A stretch of 64,000 bases of DNA, taken from NCBI GenBank assembly GCA_013697915.1, contig JACCVY010000247.1, forward strand, positions 62,001 through 126,000, given 5' to 3'. Shown here piece by piece: positions 43,819 to 50,706 of this stretch; positions within the stretch are counted from its first letter, which is position 1, and every line of letters starts with the position of its first letter. The notes under the pieces are model-generated. The model had not been told where the DNA came from and searched no databases. It was given only the letters and a program-made list of their open reading frames with translations. The translations under genes and the position numbers were made by a program. The DNA is from Blastocatellia bacterium. GTDB lineage: Bacteria > Acidobacteriota > Blastocatellia > Pyrinomonadales > Pyrinomonadaceae.

Positions 43819-45357
43819 ATGAGCGAAGCGGCTGAAAATTCTTCTCCTAAACTCGTCCGCGGCCTGGGCCTGCTCGACGCCAGTATGATTGTCGTCGGGT
43901 CGATGATTGGCTCGGGAATTTTCATTACCTCGGCTGAGTCGGCGCGGCTGGTAGCATCCCCCGGTTGGTTACTCGTCGCCTGGGCACTGGCCGGACTACT
44001 GACTATTACGGGGGCACTCTGCTGCGCGGAGTTGGCGGCGATGATGCCACATGCCGGCGGGCAGTACGTCTTTCTGCGCGAAGCCTACGGACCAGCAGCC
44101 GGATTTCTTTTTGGCTGGTCCTTCCTGCTGGTTATACAAACCGGCACTATCGCGGCCGTCGCTGTTGCTTTTGCGCGCTTCATGGGCGTGCTCGCACCGC
44201 AGGTCTCAGAATCAAATTACATTGTCGCGCCGGTGCATTTGTTCGGCAGTTACGCCATCAGCCTGTCGACTGCGCAACTGGTCGCGATCGTTCTGATTAT
44301 GTTGTTGACTGCGACCAACACGCGCGGTCTAAAAACGGGCAAGCTCATTCAGAATACTTTTACCTTGACGAAAACTGCCGCGCTCGCCGGCCTCATTCTG
44401 GTTGGCCTGTTATTGGGCTGGAACAGCAACAGCGCTGCTTATACTTCCAACTGGTGGCATCCGGCCGCTAACGGTTGGAATCCGCAGGTGGTCCAGCCGG
44501 GCCTGACGGCGACCGGAACGACCGCCCTGCTGATGCTGTTAGGCCTGGCGATGGTGGGGCCGCTGTTTGCACAATCGGCGTGGAACAATGTCACATTCAC
44601 CGGCAGCGAGATTCGGGATCCCGGCCGCAACCTGCCGCGTGCTCTGCTCATAGGTTGTCTTGCGGTGGTGGCTCTATATCTTCTCGCTAATGTCGCATAC
44701 ATCGTGACGCTGCCACTCGGGACAATTCAAAAGCCGCCGAATAGTGTTGCGACTGCCACGATGCAGGCTGTCTTTAATCGCCCGGGCACGATCCTGATGG
44801 CCGTGGCGATTATGATCTCGACATTTGGATGCAACAACGGCCTGATTCTCGCAGGCGCGCGCGTGTATTACGCCATGGCGCGCGACCGTTTGTTTTTCTC
44901 ACGCATCGGCATTCTCAACTCCCGGCAAGTCCCGGCGGTCGCGCTGGTAGTGCAAGGTATTTGGGCATCACTACTGACATTGCCGCGTACGATTTCTACA
45001 GCAACCAACACACAAGCCGGTGCAACTACGGTGAGCTACAGCAACGTCTACACGCAGCTACTCGAATACATTGTTTCCGCTGATCTAGTTTTTTATGCGC
45101 TGATGGTGGGAGCGGTGATCGTCATGCGGCGCAAGTCTCCGGCGCTCGAGCGCCCTTATCGCACCTTCGGTTATCCGGTTGTGCCACTGATCTACATTTC
45201 ACTCGCGCTGTTGCTGGTGATCGATCTTGCTTTGCTAAAGGCACAAACATCCGGCATTGGCTACTTATTAGTTCTAACCGGAATTCCGATCTTCTTCATC
45301 TGGCGCAAGCGCGCAGTTCCAAGAGGGGGTAAACCCACCTTCCCAACCATGAGCTGA
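43819..45357 (+). CDS. APC-superfamily amino-acid permease
   Basis: A 512-residue polytopic transporter with about 12 to 14 hydrophobic helices. Helix 1 contains the diagnostic substrate-site GSMIGSGIFI, followed by GALCCAELAAMMPHAGGQYVFL, as in LAT/APC exchangers. An extended loop around residues 395-410 (TATNTQAGATTV) is unusual. The substrate cannot be named. The final residues (RGGKPTFPTMS) and stop codon are encoded by the left arm of a MITE-like element, so the original C-terminus was probably different. Confidence 0.9.
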   Translation: MSEAAENSSPKLVRGLGLLDASMIVVGSMIGSGIFITSAESARLVASPGWLLVAWALAGLLTITGALCCAELAAMMPHAGGQYVFLREAYGPAAGFLFGWSFLLVIQTGTIAAVAVAFARFMGVLAPQVSESNYIVAPVHLFGSYAISLSTAQLVAIVLIMLLTATNTRGLKTGKLIQNTFTLTKTAALAGLILVGLLLGWNSNSAAYTSNWWHPAANGWNPQVVQPGLTATGTTALLMLLGLAMVGPLFAQSAWNNVTFTGSEIRDPGRNLPRALLIGCLAVVALYLLANVAYIVTLPLGTIQKPPNSVATATMQAVFNRPGTILMAVAIMISTFGCNNGLILAGARVYYAMARDRLFFSRIGILNSRQVPAVALVVQGIWASLLTLPRTISTATNTQAGATTVSYSNVYTQLLEYIVSADLVFYALMVGAVIVMRRKSPALERPYRTFGYPVVPLIYISLALLLVIDLALLKAQTSGIGYLLVLTGIPIFFIWRKRAVPRGGKPTFPTMS

Positions 45358-45459
45358 TCACAGTTGCGCGAATTTCTGATCTGAAAGGCTCTCAAGGAAG
45401 GAGTCGATTTGCAACGAGACTAACCTCATGGTCGGGAAGGTGGGTTTACCCCCGCTCTT
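45321..45459. mobile_element. MITE-like element, family 1, copy 1
   Basis: Inverted arms of about 33-35 bases (left GGGGGTAAACCCACCTTCCC at 45321-45353, right its complement at 45425-45459) enclose about 70 bases. The left arm supplies the end of the permease gene. The family is recognised by GAGCGGGGGyaArCCmmCCTTCC ends. Confidence 0.85.
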
Positions 45460-45492
45460 ACCTGCACTACTTTCAGTCTTCGCGGTTGACAC

Positions 45493-47274
45493 CTACTTCA
45501 CCCATTCCTCGGCGATTTCTGTCTCCACTTTCACTGGTACAGTTTTCACATACTCTTCACCTGCGACGCGCATCGTTCGCTCCACTTTTTCCGCAACCTC
45601 TTCAGCTTCGTCCGAATCAGCTTCAACGACTATTTCGTCGTGAATGATGTTGACGATCTGCGCGTTTGTATTGCGGAGCTCATCGTTTAGCAGCCGCAGC
45701 GCGCGCTTGAGAATGTCGGCACTGGTGCCCTGGATGGGCGTGTTCTTGCCGTTGCGCTTGGTCATGGAAATCTGTTGGCGGTCCTGTTCGTCGTAGCGGA
45801 AACGCACCAAACGGCCGGATGCCGTTCGCGCCTGACGCTCGCGTACGGCGCGATTCGCTGCTTCATGAAGATAGGTGTCGAGCTGACGATAGGTGCCAAA
45901 ATACTTGCGCAAAACGTTTTCAGCTTCCCCTACGCTCAAGCCGGTCATAATCGAAAAGCGCTGCGCGCCGATGCCATAGACCACACCGAAATTGAGCCGC
46001 TTGGCAAAGTCGCGCTGTTCTTTCGTGACCTGGTCCAACGGCGTATTGAAAACTTCGGCGGCCGTTACGCGATGCAGATCGGCGCCGGAATTAAACGCCT
46101 TGATGAAGCCTTGATCGCCGGAAAACTCCGCCAGAATGCGCAGCTCGATCTGCGAATAGTCCGCAATGATCAATTTTCTGCCTTCCGGATAACCGGAAAA
46201 GCAGCGGCGATATTCAACCGCGTGCGGCACCTGCTGAATGTTGGGATTGGTGCATGAGAATCTTCCGGTCGGCGCGCCAATCTGGCGAAAGTCAGCATGC
46301 AGCCGTCCGGTTGTTGGATTGATCAAGTCAATCATGTTCTGACCGTAACTCGTCAACGCCTTCTGCACGGTGCGGTATTCCAATAGCGTGGCGATAACGG
46401 GATACACGGCAGCCAGCGGCTGAAGTTTCCAGTTGCGCGTTGAATCGGGAACAGGAATGCCAAGGCGATTCAGTGCTTGCGTTAATTGCTGGTGCGAATC
46501 CAAATTGATGTCATCGCGCTGCGGTCCGCCAAATAGCGAGCCCTGCGAAGACTCCTCCGCCAGAATATCTTGCAACTCATCCGCTAACTGCTCTCTTCTC
46601 TTCTCAATTAATGACAACTGCTCGAGCCAACGATCCTTATGCATGTAAAAACCGGCCAGCTCAATGTCGGCAACGGTGGTTACACACTCAAACTCAAGCT
46701 GCGCACAGGCAATGAGTGAATCGCTGCGCAGCCGCTCGATCAGCTTTTCTCGTAACGGCAAAAGAACCGCGGCGTCGCGCGCGGCGTATTCGAGTTGTGC
46801 TTCGGACAACTCAAAATTCCAATTGCTGAGCCGTTCCGTTTTATCGACCGCTTCGTTCAGGTACCGCGAGGCAACGGTTTCCAGTCCATGCCGTTCTTCG
46901 ATGTCACCGGCGCTGACGATTTGGCTGGCCAGCAGAGTGTCAAATAGCCCGCCCAGATCCACGCCGAGTGTGTGCTTGATAAATTTCGCATCGAACTTTG
47001 CGTTGTGCGCAATCTTGATGGGACGAGCGGCTTGCAACAACCGTTTCAGCGGATTGAGTGCCTCATTGTTCTTCAGATCACCGTTGGCAAAAGCATCGAG
47101 GTCAATAACCTCTACACCCGCCGGGGTCGCGAGCTGAATCAGGCGCAGGCGGCCAAAATAAGGGTCGAGTTCTGTAGTTTCCGTGTCGAGCCCAATCACC
47201 TGATGCGCAGACAACACCTCCACTGCCTGGCGCAGTTCTTCCGCATTCTTGATGACTCGATAACGCGTGCTCAT
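45493..47274 (-). CDS. Family A DNA polymerase with 3'-5' exonuclease, no 5' nuclease domain
   Basis: A 593-residue PolA-type enzyme. Residues 1 to about 190 form an RNase D/DnaQ-like 3'-5' exonuclease with intact metal residues (IGLDTETTEL, Asp30/Glu32; later YAARDAAV). The polymerase domain shows motif A (IIADYSQIELRI), motif B (RDFAKRLNFGVVYG) and motif C (IIHDEIVVE). The approximately 300-residue 5'-3' exonuclease of E. coli Pol I is absent; the N-terminus is intact, so this is a family type rather than a truncation. I set the start at 47274 (MSTRYRV); the track adds five codons. Confidence 0.93.
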   Translation of the reverse strand: MSTRYRVIKNAEELRQAVEVLSAHQVIGLDTETTELDPYFGRLRLIQLATPAGVEVIDLDAFANGDLKNNEALNPLKRLLQAARPIKIAHNAKFDAKFIKHTLGVDLGGLFDTLLASQIVSAGDIEERHGLETVASRYLNEAVDKTERLSNWNFELSEAQLEYAARDAAVLLPLREKLIERLRSDSLIACAQLEFECVTTVADIELAGFYMHKDRWLEQLSLIEKRREQLADELQDILAEESSQGSLFGGPQRDDINLDSHQQLTQALNRLGIPVPDSTRNWKLQPLAAVYPVIATLLEYRTVQKALTSYGQNMIDLINPTTGRLHADFRQIGAPTGRFSCTNPNIQQVPHAVEYRRCFSGYPEGRKLIIADYSQIELRILAEFSGDQGFIKAFNSGADLHRVTAAEVFNTPLDQVTKEQRDFAKRLNFGVVYGIGAQRFSIMTGLSVGEAENVLRKYFGTYRQLDTYLHEAANRAVRERQARTASGRLVRFRYDEQDRQQISMTKRNGKNTPIQGTSADILKRALRLLNDELRNTNAQIVNIIHDEIVVEADSDEAEEVAEKVERTMRVAGEEYVKTVPVKVETEIAEEWVK

Positions 47275-47393
47275 AGTAGTTAGTAGCACAGACTTAAGTC
47301 TGTGCTTTCGTGCGCGTCACAGACTATTTAGTCTGTCTCTTCGTAGATGACACGACTGAAGGAGACTTTGAACAAGCTGGTGAAAGTCTGCAC
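47275..47393. repeat. Small palindromes upstream of the DNA polymerase gene
   Basis: A perfect 20-base palindrome GCACAGACTTAAGTCTGTGC (47286-47305) and an 18-base palindrome ACAGACTATTTAGTCTGT (47319-47336) lie just before the polymerase start. The same ACAGACT/AGTCTGT unit recurs at 63416-63431. Confidence 0.8.
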
Positions 47394-47675
47394 TGAGCCC
47401 GCGAAGCGCGGCGATAGCATAAAGCCTGGGGTGTAGCGGAGGGGAACCCCAGGTTCGTTGAAGTAAAAAACGAAAAGCCCACGGAAAGTGGGCGACAGCT
47501 TTGTATGACTGCTAAATCGCAGCGTTTGCGCTATCGCACGCTTCGCGCGCTCCGGTTTTTTGACTATCGTCGTCCTGGGGTTCCGCTCCGCTACACCCCA
47601 GGGCGGGGTCCCCGGCCGAGCATCTCGGCTGGGGTGCTAGACTTTATGCTTCCACCCGCTACGCGGGTTTGGAAA
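47394..47675. mobile_element. MITE-like element, family 2, copy B, with nested insertion
   Basis: A palindromic element of about 280 bases filling the gap between the polymerase and ribE. The arms are GCATAAAGCCTGGGGTGTAG and its inverse, with outer ACCCGCTACGCGGGTTTGG. The core is homologous to copy A in the reverse orientation. The right arm is interrupted between CCCCAGG and CTTTATGC by about 38 bases that form their own hairpin (CCGAGCATCTCGG inside CCCC/GGGG), probably a nested insertion. Confidence 0.8.
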
Positions 47676-47742: not shown

Positions 47743-48351
47743 TTACTGTTGCGGAGGGGTTTCTGCGAAACGCAGGATGCGTTCGACATATTTGGCGATC
47801 ATGTCGACTTCAAGATTCACTTCATCGCCGGGTTTGAGTTGAGAAAAGTTTGTCACTTCCCAGGTTTTCGGAATGATGGCAACTTCAAAATAATTGTCAG
47901 TCAACGCGGCAATGGTAAGGCTGATGCCTTCCACTGCAACCGAACCTTTGAAGATAAGATAACGCGCAATGTCCTTTGGATATTCAATACGGATCGTCCA
48001 TGAACCTTCGTGATCAGCAACACTCAAAAACTTTCCGCATGCATCGACGTGACCCTGAACGATGTGTCCGCCGAGGCGCGTGACGGGTGTGACTGCGCGC
48101 TCGAGATTTACGGCGCTGCCCGGTTGCAAATGCCCCAGCGTGGACCGATCAAGAGTTTCGCGCGAGACATCCGCGGCAAACGAATTTGGCTGGATATCAA
48201 GCGCTGTCAGGCATACCCCATTAACCGCAATCGAGTCGCCGTGCTTTGTATCTTCAACCACCGCGTGCGCCTCAACCACGATGTAAGCGTTTTCGCCACG
48301 CGGCTCGACGTTGCGCACGCGGCCAAGTTCTTCAATGATTCCAGTAAACAT
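47743..48351 (-). CDS. ribE: Riboflavin synthase alpha chain
   Basis: A 202-residue enzyme that dismutates two 6,7-dimethyl-8-ribityllumazine molecules to riboflavin. Both lumazine-binding barrels are present: MFTGIIEELGRV...DSIAVNGVCLT and GHIVQGHVDACG...GSVAVEGISLT, matching the two-repeat family plan. The track start is 37 codons early; ATG 48351 gives the invariant MFTGIIE. No other rib genes are adjacent. A short heptamer array (AATTCGA/AATTCAA units) runs into the start codon. Confidence 0.95.
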   Translation of the reverse strand: MFTGIIEELGRVRNVEPRGENAYIVVEAHAVVEDTKHGDSIAVNGVCLTALDIQPNSFAADVSRETLDRSTLGHLQPGSAVNLERAVTPVTRLGGHIVQGHVDACGKFLSVADHEGSWTIRIEYPKDIARYLIFKGSVAVEGISLTIAALTDNYFEVAIIPKTWEVTNFSQLKPGDEVNLEVDMIAKYVERILRFAETPPQQ

Positions 48352-48381
48352 GTTTTGAATTTCGAATTTCGGATTTGTCAG
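48352..48381. repeat. Short heptamer array in the ribE leader
   Basis: TTTTGAA, TTTCGAA, TTTCGGA and TTTGTCA follow one another on the plus strand between the ribE start and the stop of the 39-residue ORF. Confidence 0.65.
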
Positions 48382-48497
48382 AGCATACGTCTTAGAATCA
48401 AGACGATTAGGAAAATGAAGAGGCCCACCAGTGCCGGTGCAAATGAGAACAGCAGCATCCACACCGGCTCGCGCTTAAATGAAAACTTGATGAACAT
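48378..48497 (-). CDS. 39-residue single-span membrane protein (below the ORF-track cutoff)
   Basis: This short ORF is not in the track. It encodes 39 residues: a basic start (MFIKFSFKREPVW), one hydrophobic helix of about 22 residues (LLFSFAPALVGLFIFLIVLI) and a basic end (LRRML). The charge pattern on both sides of a clean helix is what a real small membrane protein looks like. It lies 26 bases upstream of ribE on the same strand and downstream of a MITE-like element. No clear Shine-Dalgarno is visible. I do not recognise a family. Confidence 0.5.
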   Translation of the reverse strand: MFIKFSFKREPVWMLLFSFAPALVGLFIFLIVLILRRML

Positions 48498-48504
48498 GGA
48501 TCAT

Positions 48505-48640
48505 GGGCGGGGGCATGCCCGCCTTCCTGACCTCGAGACTATGCAACTTGCGATGTGGCTTCTAACCTGGACGCTCTTCGCCGGCTCTAAGGAATTCATT
48601 CTAAAAACCTCGGTCGGGAAGGGGGCATGCCCCCGCTCTT
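48505..48640. mobile_element. MITE-like element, family 1, copy 2
   Basis: Arms GGGCGGGGGCATGCCCGCCT (48505 onward) and CGGGAAGGGGGCATGCCCCC (to 48638) enclose about 70 bases starting CTCGAGACTAT, which matches the inner end of copy 4. The right arm overlaps the end of cmk. Confidence 0.82.
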
Positions 48641-49288
48641 TTCTTGGACCGCCGCCATCATCTTTTGAAACACTTCCTCGATCGACAACCCGGTTGAGTC
48701 AACCACGATCGCGTCGTTGGCAACTTTCAGCGGCGAATCCGCGCGCGTCTCGTCGCGGCGATCTCTTTCCGCCATGTCGGCAAAAGTTTCTTCGAACTTT
48801 ACGTTTGGATCCTGGGCACGTTCTTCGTTGAAGCGTCTTTTCGCTCGCTCCTGCGCCACGGCAGTCAGAAAAAACTTGATGTCTGCGTCAGGAAAAACCA
48901 CGGTGCCGATGTCGCGCCCGTTCATCACCGCGCCACGCCGGCCCAGCTCGCGCTGTCGCTTGACCATGGCGCGCCGCACTTGCGGGATGGTTGACACAAT
49001 CGACGACATTTCGGTTACTTCTTCGCTGCGTATCTCGTCTGTCACGTCGCGGCCTTCGAGCGTGACTTTCAGCGCATCGGGATCGCCGGCCAAATCAATA
49101 TCCACCCGTTCCGCCAATGACCCAACCGCCAAATCATCTTTTGAATTAACGCTGGATTCCATCACCGCCAGCGCCACCGCGCGGTACATCGAACCCGTAT
49201 CGATGTAAAGCAGGTTCAGCGCGCCCGCCAGCATGCGGCCCAGCGTCGACTTGCCCGCCCCGGATGGTCCATCAATGGCAATGATCAT
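48596..49288 (-). CDS. cmk: (d)CMP kinase
   Basis: A 230-residue nucleoside monophosphate kinase phosphorylating CMP and dCMP. The P-loop is AIDGPSGAGKST, followed by YIDTGSMYRAVAL; the NMP domain and lid show GRDVTDEIR, NGRDIGTVVFPDA and ERDRRDETR. The last 15 or so residues (GGMPPSRPRFLE) are encoded by a MITE-like arm and are not part of the family fold. The start follows a CCACTGA/CAACTGA heptamer array with no visible Shine-Dalgarno. Confidence 0.94.
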   Translation of the reverse strand: MIIAIDGPSGAGKSTLGRMLAGALNLLYIDTGSMYRAVALAVMESSVNSKDDLAVGSLAERVDIDLAGDPDALKVTLEGRDVTDEIRSEEVTEMSSIVSTIPQVRRAMVKRQRELGRRGAVMNGRDIGTVVFPDADIKFFLTAVAQERAKRRFNEERAQDPNVKFEETFADMAERDRRDETRADSPLKVANDAIVVDSTGLSIEEVFQKMMAAVQEKSGGMPPSRPRFLE

Positions 49289-50461: not shown

Positions 50462-50706
50462 AGTCTCTAGTCCGCAGATTACGCAGATTACGTGGATTCT
50501 TCAAACCCTGACGGCTCAAGACGGTTTGTAGCCCTGGTTTCAACCGCGGCTGGCTGACCTAAACAATTCTAGCTGGCTAACCTCACAGGTTGGGAAGGGT
50601 GGCTTGCCCCCGCTTAGATTGAGAGGCATTCTACGTGAGCGGGGGCAAGCCACCCTTCCCAACCTGTGAGATTTTGTATTTTGAAGGATTCAGACAATGG
50701 GCTTGC
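50462..50706. repeat. Intergenic region with MITE-like element (family 1, copy 3) and a 9-mer repeat
   Basis: A perfect 33-base inverted repeat (50582-50614 and 50638-50670, inner end GGGAAGGGTGGCTTGCCCCC) with only 23 bases between is the most compact family 1 copy. Nearer hemW, GCAGATTAC is repeated in tandem (50474-50498) with a third degenerate unit. No gene was recognised. Confidence 0.85.

Follow-up and report, generated by a model that had tools for sequence, protein, structure and literature searches.

Between the genes for cytidylate kinase (cmk) and riboflavin synthase (ribE) in a genome of the Pyrinomonadaceae lies a short open reading frame (ORF), and the question it raises is whether it encodes a real small membrane protein or acts as a leader for ribE. 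Both options had been put forward in a sequence-only reading of the window, that is, the whole stretch of 64,000 nt that was analysed. The features of the locus are as follows.

48378..48497, minus strand: gene for a predicted small membrane protein, 39 aa, ATG to TGA, identified by its homologues and by selection
48596..49288, minus strand: cmk (cytidylate kinase), the upstream partner and a conserved neighbour (Pfam Cytidylate_kin, E 7e-71)
47743..48351, minus strand: ribE (riboflavin synthase), downstream (Pfam Lum_binding in two stretches, E 2e-51)
48507..48636, no strand assigned: REPIN-like inverted pair of palindromic arms (arms at 48507-48527 and 48616-48636)

The ORF spans 120 nt and reads cleanly from ATG to TGA on the minus strand, as described in the sequence-only reading; its 39-aa translation (48497..48378) is MFIKFSFKREPVWMLLFSFAPALVGLFIFLIVLILRRML. 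Its position on the ribE strand, 26 nt from that gene, was also confirmed, with the ribE ATG at 48351 and a product starting with MFTGIIEEL... On the other side, a gene-free interval of 98 nt separates the ORF from the cmk stop, on the same strand. The expectation of basic flanks and one 22-residue hydrophobic helix held as well: an uncharged stretch of 22 residues (M14-L35) is flanked by K4, K8 and R9 and by R36 and R37, the best 19-residue hydropathy mean is 2.78 (Kyte-Doolittle), and AlphaFold2 predicts a single helix over residues 10-38 with a mean pLDDT of 82. The remark that such ORFs fall below common length cut-offs was only partly right, as 120 nt exceeds the minimum gene length of 90 nt used in common gene finders. 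Beyond ribE, a DNA polymerase I-like gene (45493-47289, 598 aa) has 3'-5' exonuclease and polymerase domains and no 5'-3' exonuclease match, and a separate inverted pair, CCTGGGGTGTAGCGGAGGGGAACCCCAGG, lies between the two genes (47425-47602, arms 97% complementary and 120 nt apart).

The small-protein family and its linkage to cmk

When the peptide sequence by itself, without a profile, was searched against 59 related genomes, relatives matched at 1.6e-15 and 5e-10. Identities within the genus were 82% (G004), 64, 62, 56, 53 and 50%, and weaker matches were found at the family level. Every one of these same-genus homologues (50-82% identity) sits between cmk and ribE, and tblastn with cmk and ribE gave nine homologue loci in the order cmk, ORF, ribE. 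In an alignment of 18 sequences, from which a family profile was built, Met and Trp are invariant and Phe-Lys is nearly so; the shared pattern consists of FxFKxExxW, approximately 22 hydrophobic residues and then basic residues, in single-pass proteins of ~37-43 residues. The profile detected 35 copies at E<1e-5 in 34 of 119 Pyrinomonadaceae genomes, and the window copy scored E 8.7e-17 against profile A1, a profile that includes this copy. Profile E-values of family copies are ~1e-16, and start, frame and position are kept across genera that are saturated at synonymous sites. By motif, predicted helix and position, the window ORF is thus a member of the cmk-linked family of predicted small membrane proteins defined here. 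Outside the Pyrinomonadaceae, only a handful of profile matches were obtained in 347 genomes of the phylum, as was the case within the class, and a second profile, built from copies located elsewhere, did not extend the family past the class. On this sampling, the family is confined almost entirely to the Pyrinomonadaceae (Acidobacteriota, Blastocatellia).

No Pfam-A or NCBIfam family matched the ORF at its curated threshold. The 18 family members gave only scattered weak matches in Pfam and NCBIfam (best E 0.009, none credible), a PDB profile search returned only chance-level matches, and no literature on this gene was found. Several single copies deserve mention. A weaker copy in G076 (L189, ~700-830 of the contig) is placed between genes reading like nuoF and nuoG, and the copy in G109 lies behind a gene reading as Ada-like. 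Two copies were seen outside the Pyrinomonadaceae, in G055 and G048; in G048, two tandem relatives (L111:5008-5290) are flanked by genes whose sequences suggest fatty-acid oxidation enzymes.

To survey linkage, the sequence preceding ribE and that following cmk were read in 105 genomes. Directly behind cmk we found 26 of the 35 copies, including that of G122, whose contig begins inside cmk so that linkage was read from the cmk C-terminal sequence; the contig of G138 ends before cmk. The next gene after the ORF is ribE in 14 of the 26, and no ribE occurs within 700 nt in the other 12 (G063, G065, G066, G067, G068, G070, G071, G093, G098, G110, G111 and G122). The start of the ORF shares exactly 4 nt (ATGA) with the end of cmk in G012, G017, G137 and G139, and 14 nt in 9 genomes. 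Judging from these loci, the ORF goes with cmk, and ribE follows in some lineages only. Eight copies are located away from cmk (G016, G020, G024, G033, the second copy of G071, G084, G087 and G113), in differing surroundings: as read from sequence, a gene resembling the window's M19 dipeptidase or a multihaem cytochrome-like gene precedes the copy, or a secA-like gene lies beside it. No neighbour common to these copies was found, and their existence indicates that partnership with cmk is not obligatory.

The 98-nt interval in the window is explained by the REPIN-like insert, whose distal arm sits inside the 3' end of cmk, where it now supplies the coding sequence for the C-terminal tail of the kinase. 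The arm pattern has 71 matches in the genome, compared with 0 for a reversed-pattern control, and the arms often form inverted pairs ~115 nt apart genome-wide; in being an inverted palindromic arm pair repeated across the genome, the insert is REPIN-like. It resembles REPINs and BIMEs in having two inverted palindromic arms ~90-115 nt apart in many genome copies and in the presence of Y1 transposase homologues in the window genome (13 Y1_Tnp matches, candidates for a cognate RAYT transposase), but differs from them in that its sequence is specific to the window lineage. It is common to the window genome, G004 and G014 and absent from the junction in G012, whose cmk and ORF share the 4 nt ATGA. 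Repeat insertion has thus created the gap in the window lineage, and the separation of the two genes is secondary. Further REPIN-like inverted pairs lie between genes at 45313-45465 and 50579-50673.

The ORF product could be a membrane tether or regulator that serves cytidylate kinase specifically, for instance by holding Cmk at the site where CMP is set free in phospholipid synthesis. Such a role would fit the immediate linkage to and overlap with cmk, which are conserved in many genera whether ribE is present or not. However, copies lie beside unrelated genes (M19 peptidase, Ada-like, an apparent nuoF-nuoG junction, secA-like), and most genomes of the family carry cmk without the ORF. A dedicated tether is a possible function, weakened by the copies elsewhere in the genome, and we consider it unlikely. 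That the protein is a Cmk membrane adaptor coupling CMP recycling to phospholipid synthesis in the Pyrinomonadaceae, made in step with the kinase via overlapping stop-start codons, seems to us quite improbable.

Loss, expression and the relation to ribE

The related records are nearly all draft environmental genomes, in which a single absence can be a gap; judged at loci where cmk and ribE were both read through, the ORF is missing from 6 of the 12 same-genus relatives that have cmk, whereas 7 genomes of the genus retain it, and at least 20 genomes lack an intact ORF while carrying cmk and ribE no more than 700 nt apart. The ribE gene of G003, G005, G011 and G015 starts before cmk has ended, with 20 nt shared between the two, and in G007, a residual start overlaps the cmk stop and the frame closes after a few codons. 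Decayed copies were also found: the G029 copy has an apparent frameshift, the G125 copy has lost its helix through a frame change, in G109 a stop codon stands where its nearest relatives carry the conserved Trp, and in the first of the two tandem G048 copies the Trp position is likewise taken by a stop. Frame-disrupting changes in close relatives, which the sequence-only reading had named as what would refute the ORF, are thus seen in part: the frame is undamaged in the nearest relative, but elsewhere among the relatives the gene is missing or disrupted. Given the repeated loss and the broken copies, the gene is dispensable and its role not essential; these events speak for dispensability and not for a non-coding status.

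Patchy distribution, differing loci and decayed copies would be explained if the ORF were some selfish small gene, such as one for the toxin member, acting on membranes, of a type I-like toxin-antitoxin pair, and the single hydrophobic helix with basic ends would suit such a product. Nevertheless, the position in the cmk operon is stable across genera, the ORF overlaps translationally with a housekeeping gene, it is usually present in a single copy, and the window contains no Rfam match, all of which make this reading very unlikely.

That the ORF is a leader, or an upstream ORF controlling the translation of ribE through coupling or attenuation, is suggested by the placement on the same strand, 26 nt before ribE, and by the 14 cmk-linked copies that precede ribE. 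This option of the sequence-only reading was not borne out. The 12 homologues behind cmk that have no ribE within 700 nt, together with the at least 20 genomes in which cmk is next to ribE and the ORF is absent, argue that the ORF is not a ribE leader. Co-occurrence with ribE at a conserved short spacing was not observed, the distance ranging from 6 to 215 nt across genomes and eight family copies lying elsewhere. In addition, an Rfam search of the whole window detected neither an FMN riboswitch nor any other Rfam family, and it is the amino-acid sequence that is under selection (see below). The leader reading is thus largely refuted, and we give it very little probability.

With regard to expression, a Shine-Dalgarno-like core is not enriched just upstream of the ORF (8 of 29 versus 9 expected), and the nearest AGGAAGG in the window ends 24 nt before the ATG. 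Considered together with the cmk overlap, from which we infer the mode of initiation, the lack of enrichment makes stop-start coupling from cmk the better fit than initiation of the ORF on its own.

Selection on the reading frame

The nearest pair, G000 and G004, shows 15 differences with 0 indels and 0 differences at second positions (dS 0.32, dN 0.09). When 11 largely independent pairs were pooled, 253.5 nonsynonymous and 140.5 synonymous changes were counted. Neutral simulations for these pairs gave 278-303 expected nonsynonymous changes and a mean of 8-11 stop codons, and the observed value was reached in 0, 0, 0 and 2 of 2000 simulations at transition biases of 1, 2, 4 and 8; the five closest pairs alone were weaker (0, 8, 41 and 114 of 3000 simulations). 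These data show that purifying selection acts on the protein encoded by the ORF. The conservation with synonymous-site bias that the sequence-only reading had proposed as a check is therefore seen in related genomes, with frame and start kept and codon tests indicating purifying selection. Its suggestion of a real small membrane protein is supported by this selection and by homologues sharing motif, frame and position, membrane placement being predicted. At the level of sequence comparison, the coding status of the ORF and its linkage to cmk can be regarded as established. A chance open frame in an intergenic region, in keeping with the short length, the lack of Shine-Dalgarno enrichment and the absence from several congeners, is refuted by the profile search (E ~1e-16, with start, frame and position conserved across genera with saturated synonymous sites) and by the pooled test for purifying selection, and its probability is negligible.

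Proposed role and significance

Taken as a whole, we consider it likely that the ORF is the gene of a single-pass inner-membrane micro-protein, usually located behind cmk and stop-start coupled to it, with an accessory or regulatory role. The ORF would probably be translated through stop-start coupling to cmk, and its product probably enters the membrane as a single helix whose basic, amphipathic N-terminus (FxFKxExxW) lies on the cytoplasmic side. The peptide probably assists or regulates a larger membrane protein or complex as one of its subunits. CydX, KdpF, AcrZ and MgrB are operon-encoded, single-pass small accessory membrane proteins, and the candidate is similar to them in type, with 30-50 residues, one helix, a basic flank and an operon location. 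It differs from these proteins in showing no sequence similarity, as judged from the lack of a credible Pfam or NCBIfam match, and in that its neighbour is the gene of a cytosolic kinase and not of a membrane complex.

These results correct an obvious but wrong guess, that of a ribE leader, and bring to a little-studied soil phylum a micro-protein family that is conserved and as yet unnamed. The REPIN-like insert shows how a putatively coupled gene pair has been pulled apart with the downstream gene retained, and the repeated loss of the gene provides natural presence/absence pairs inside one genus. The conserved overlap with cmk, in turn, points to a concrete, testable partner and expression mechanism for this family.
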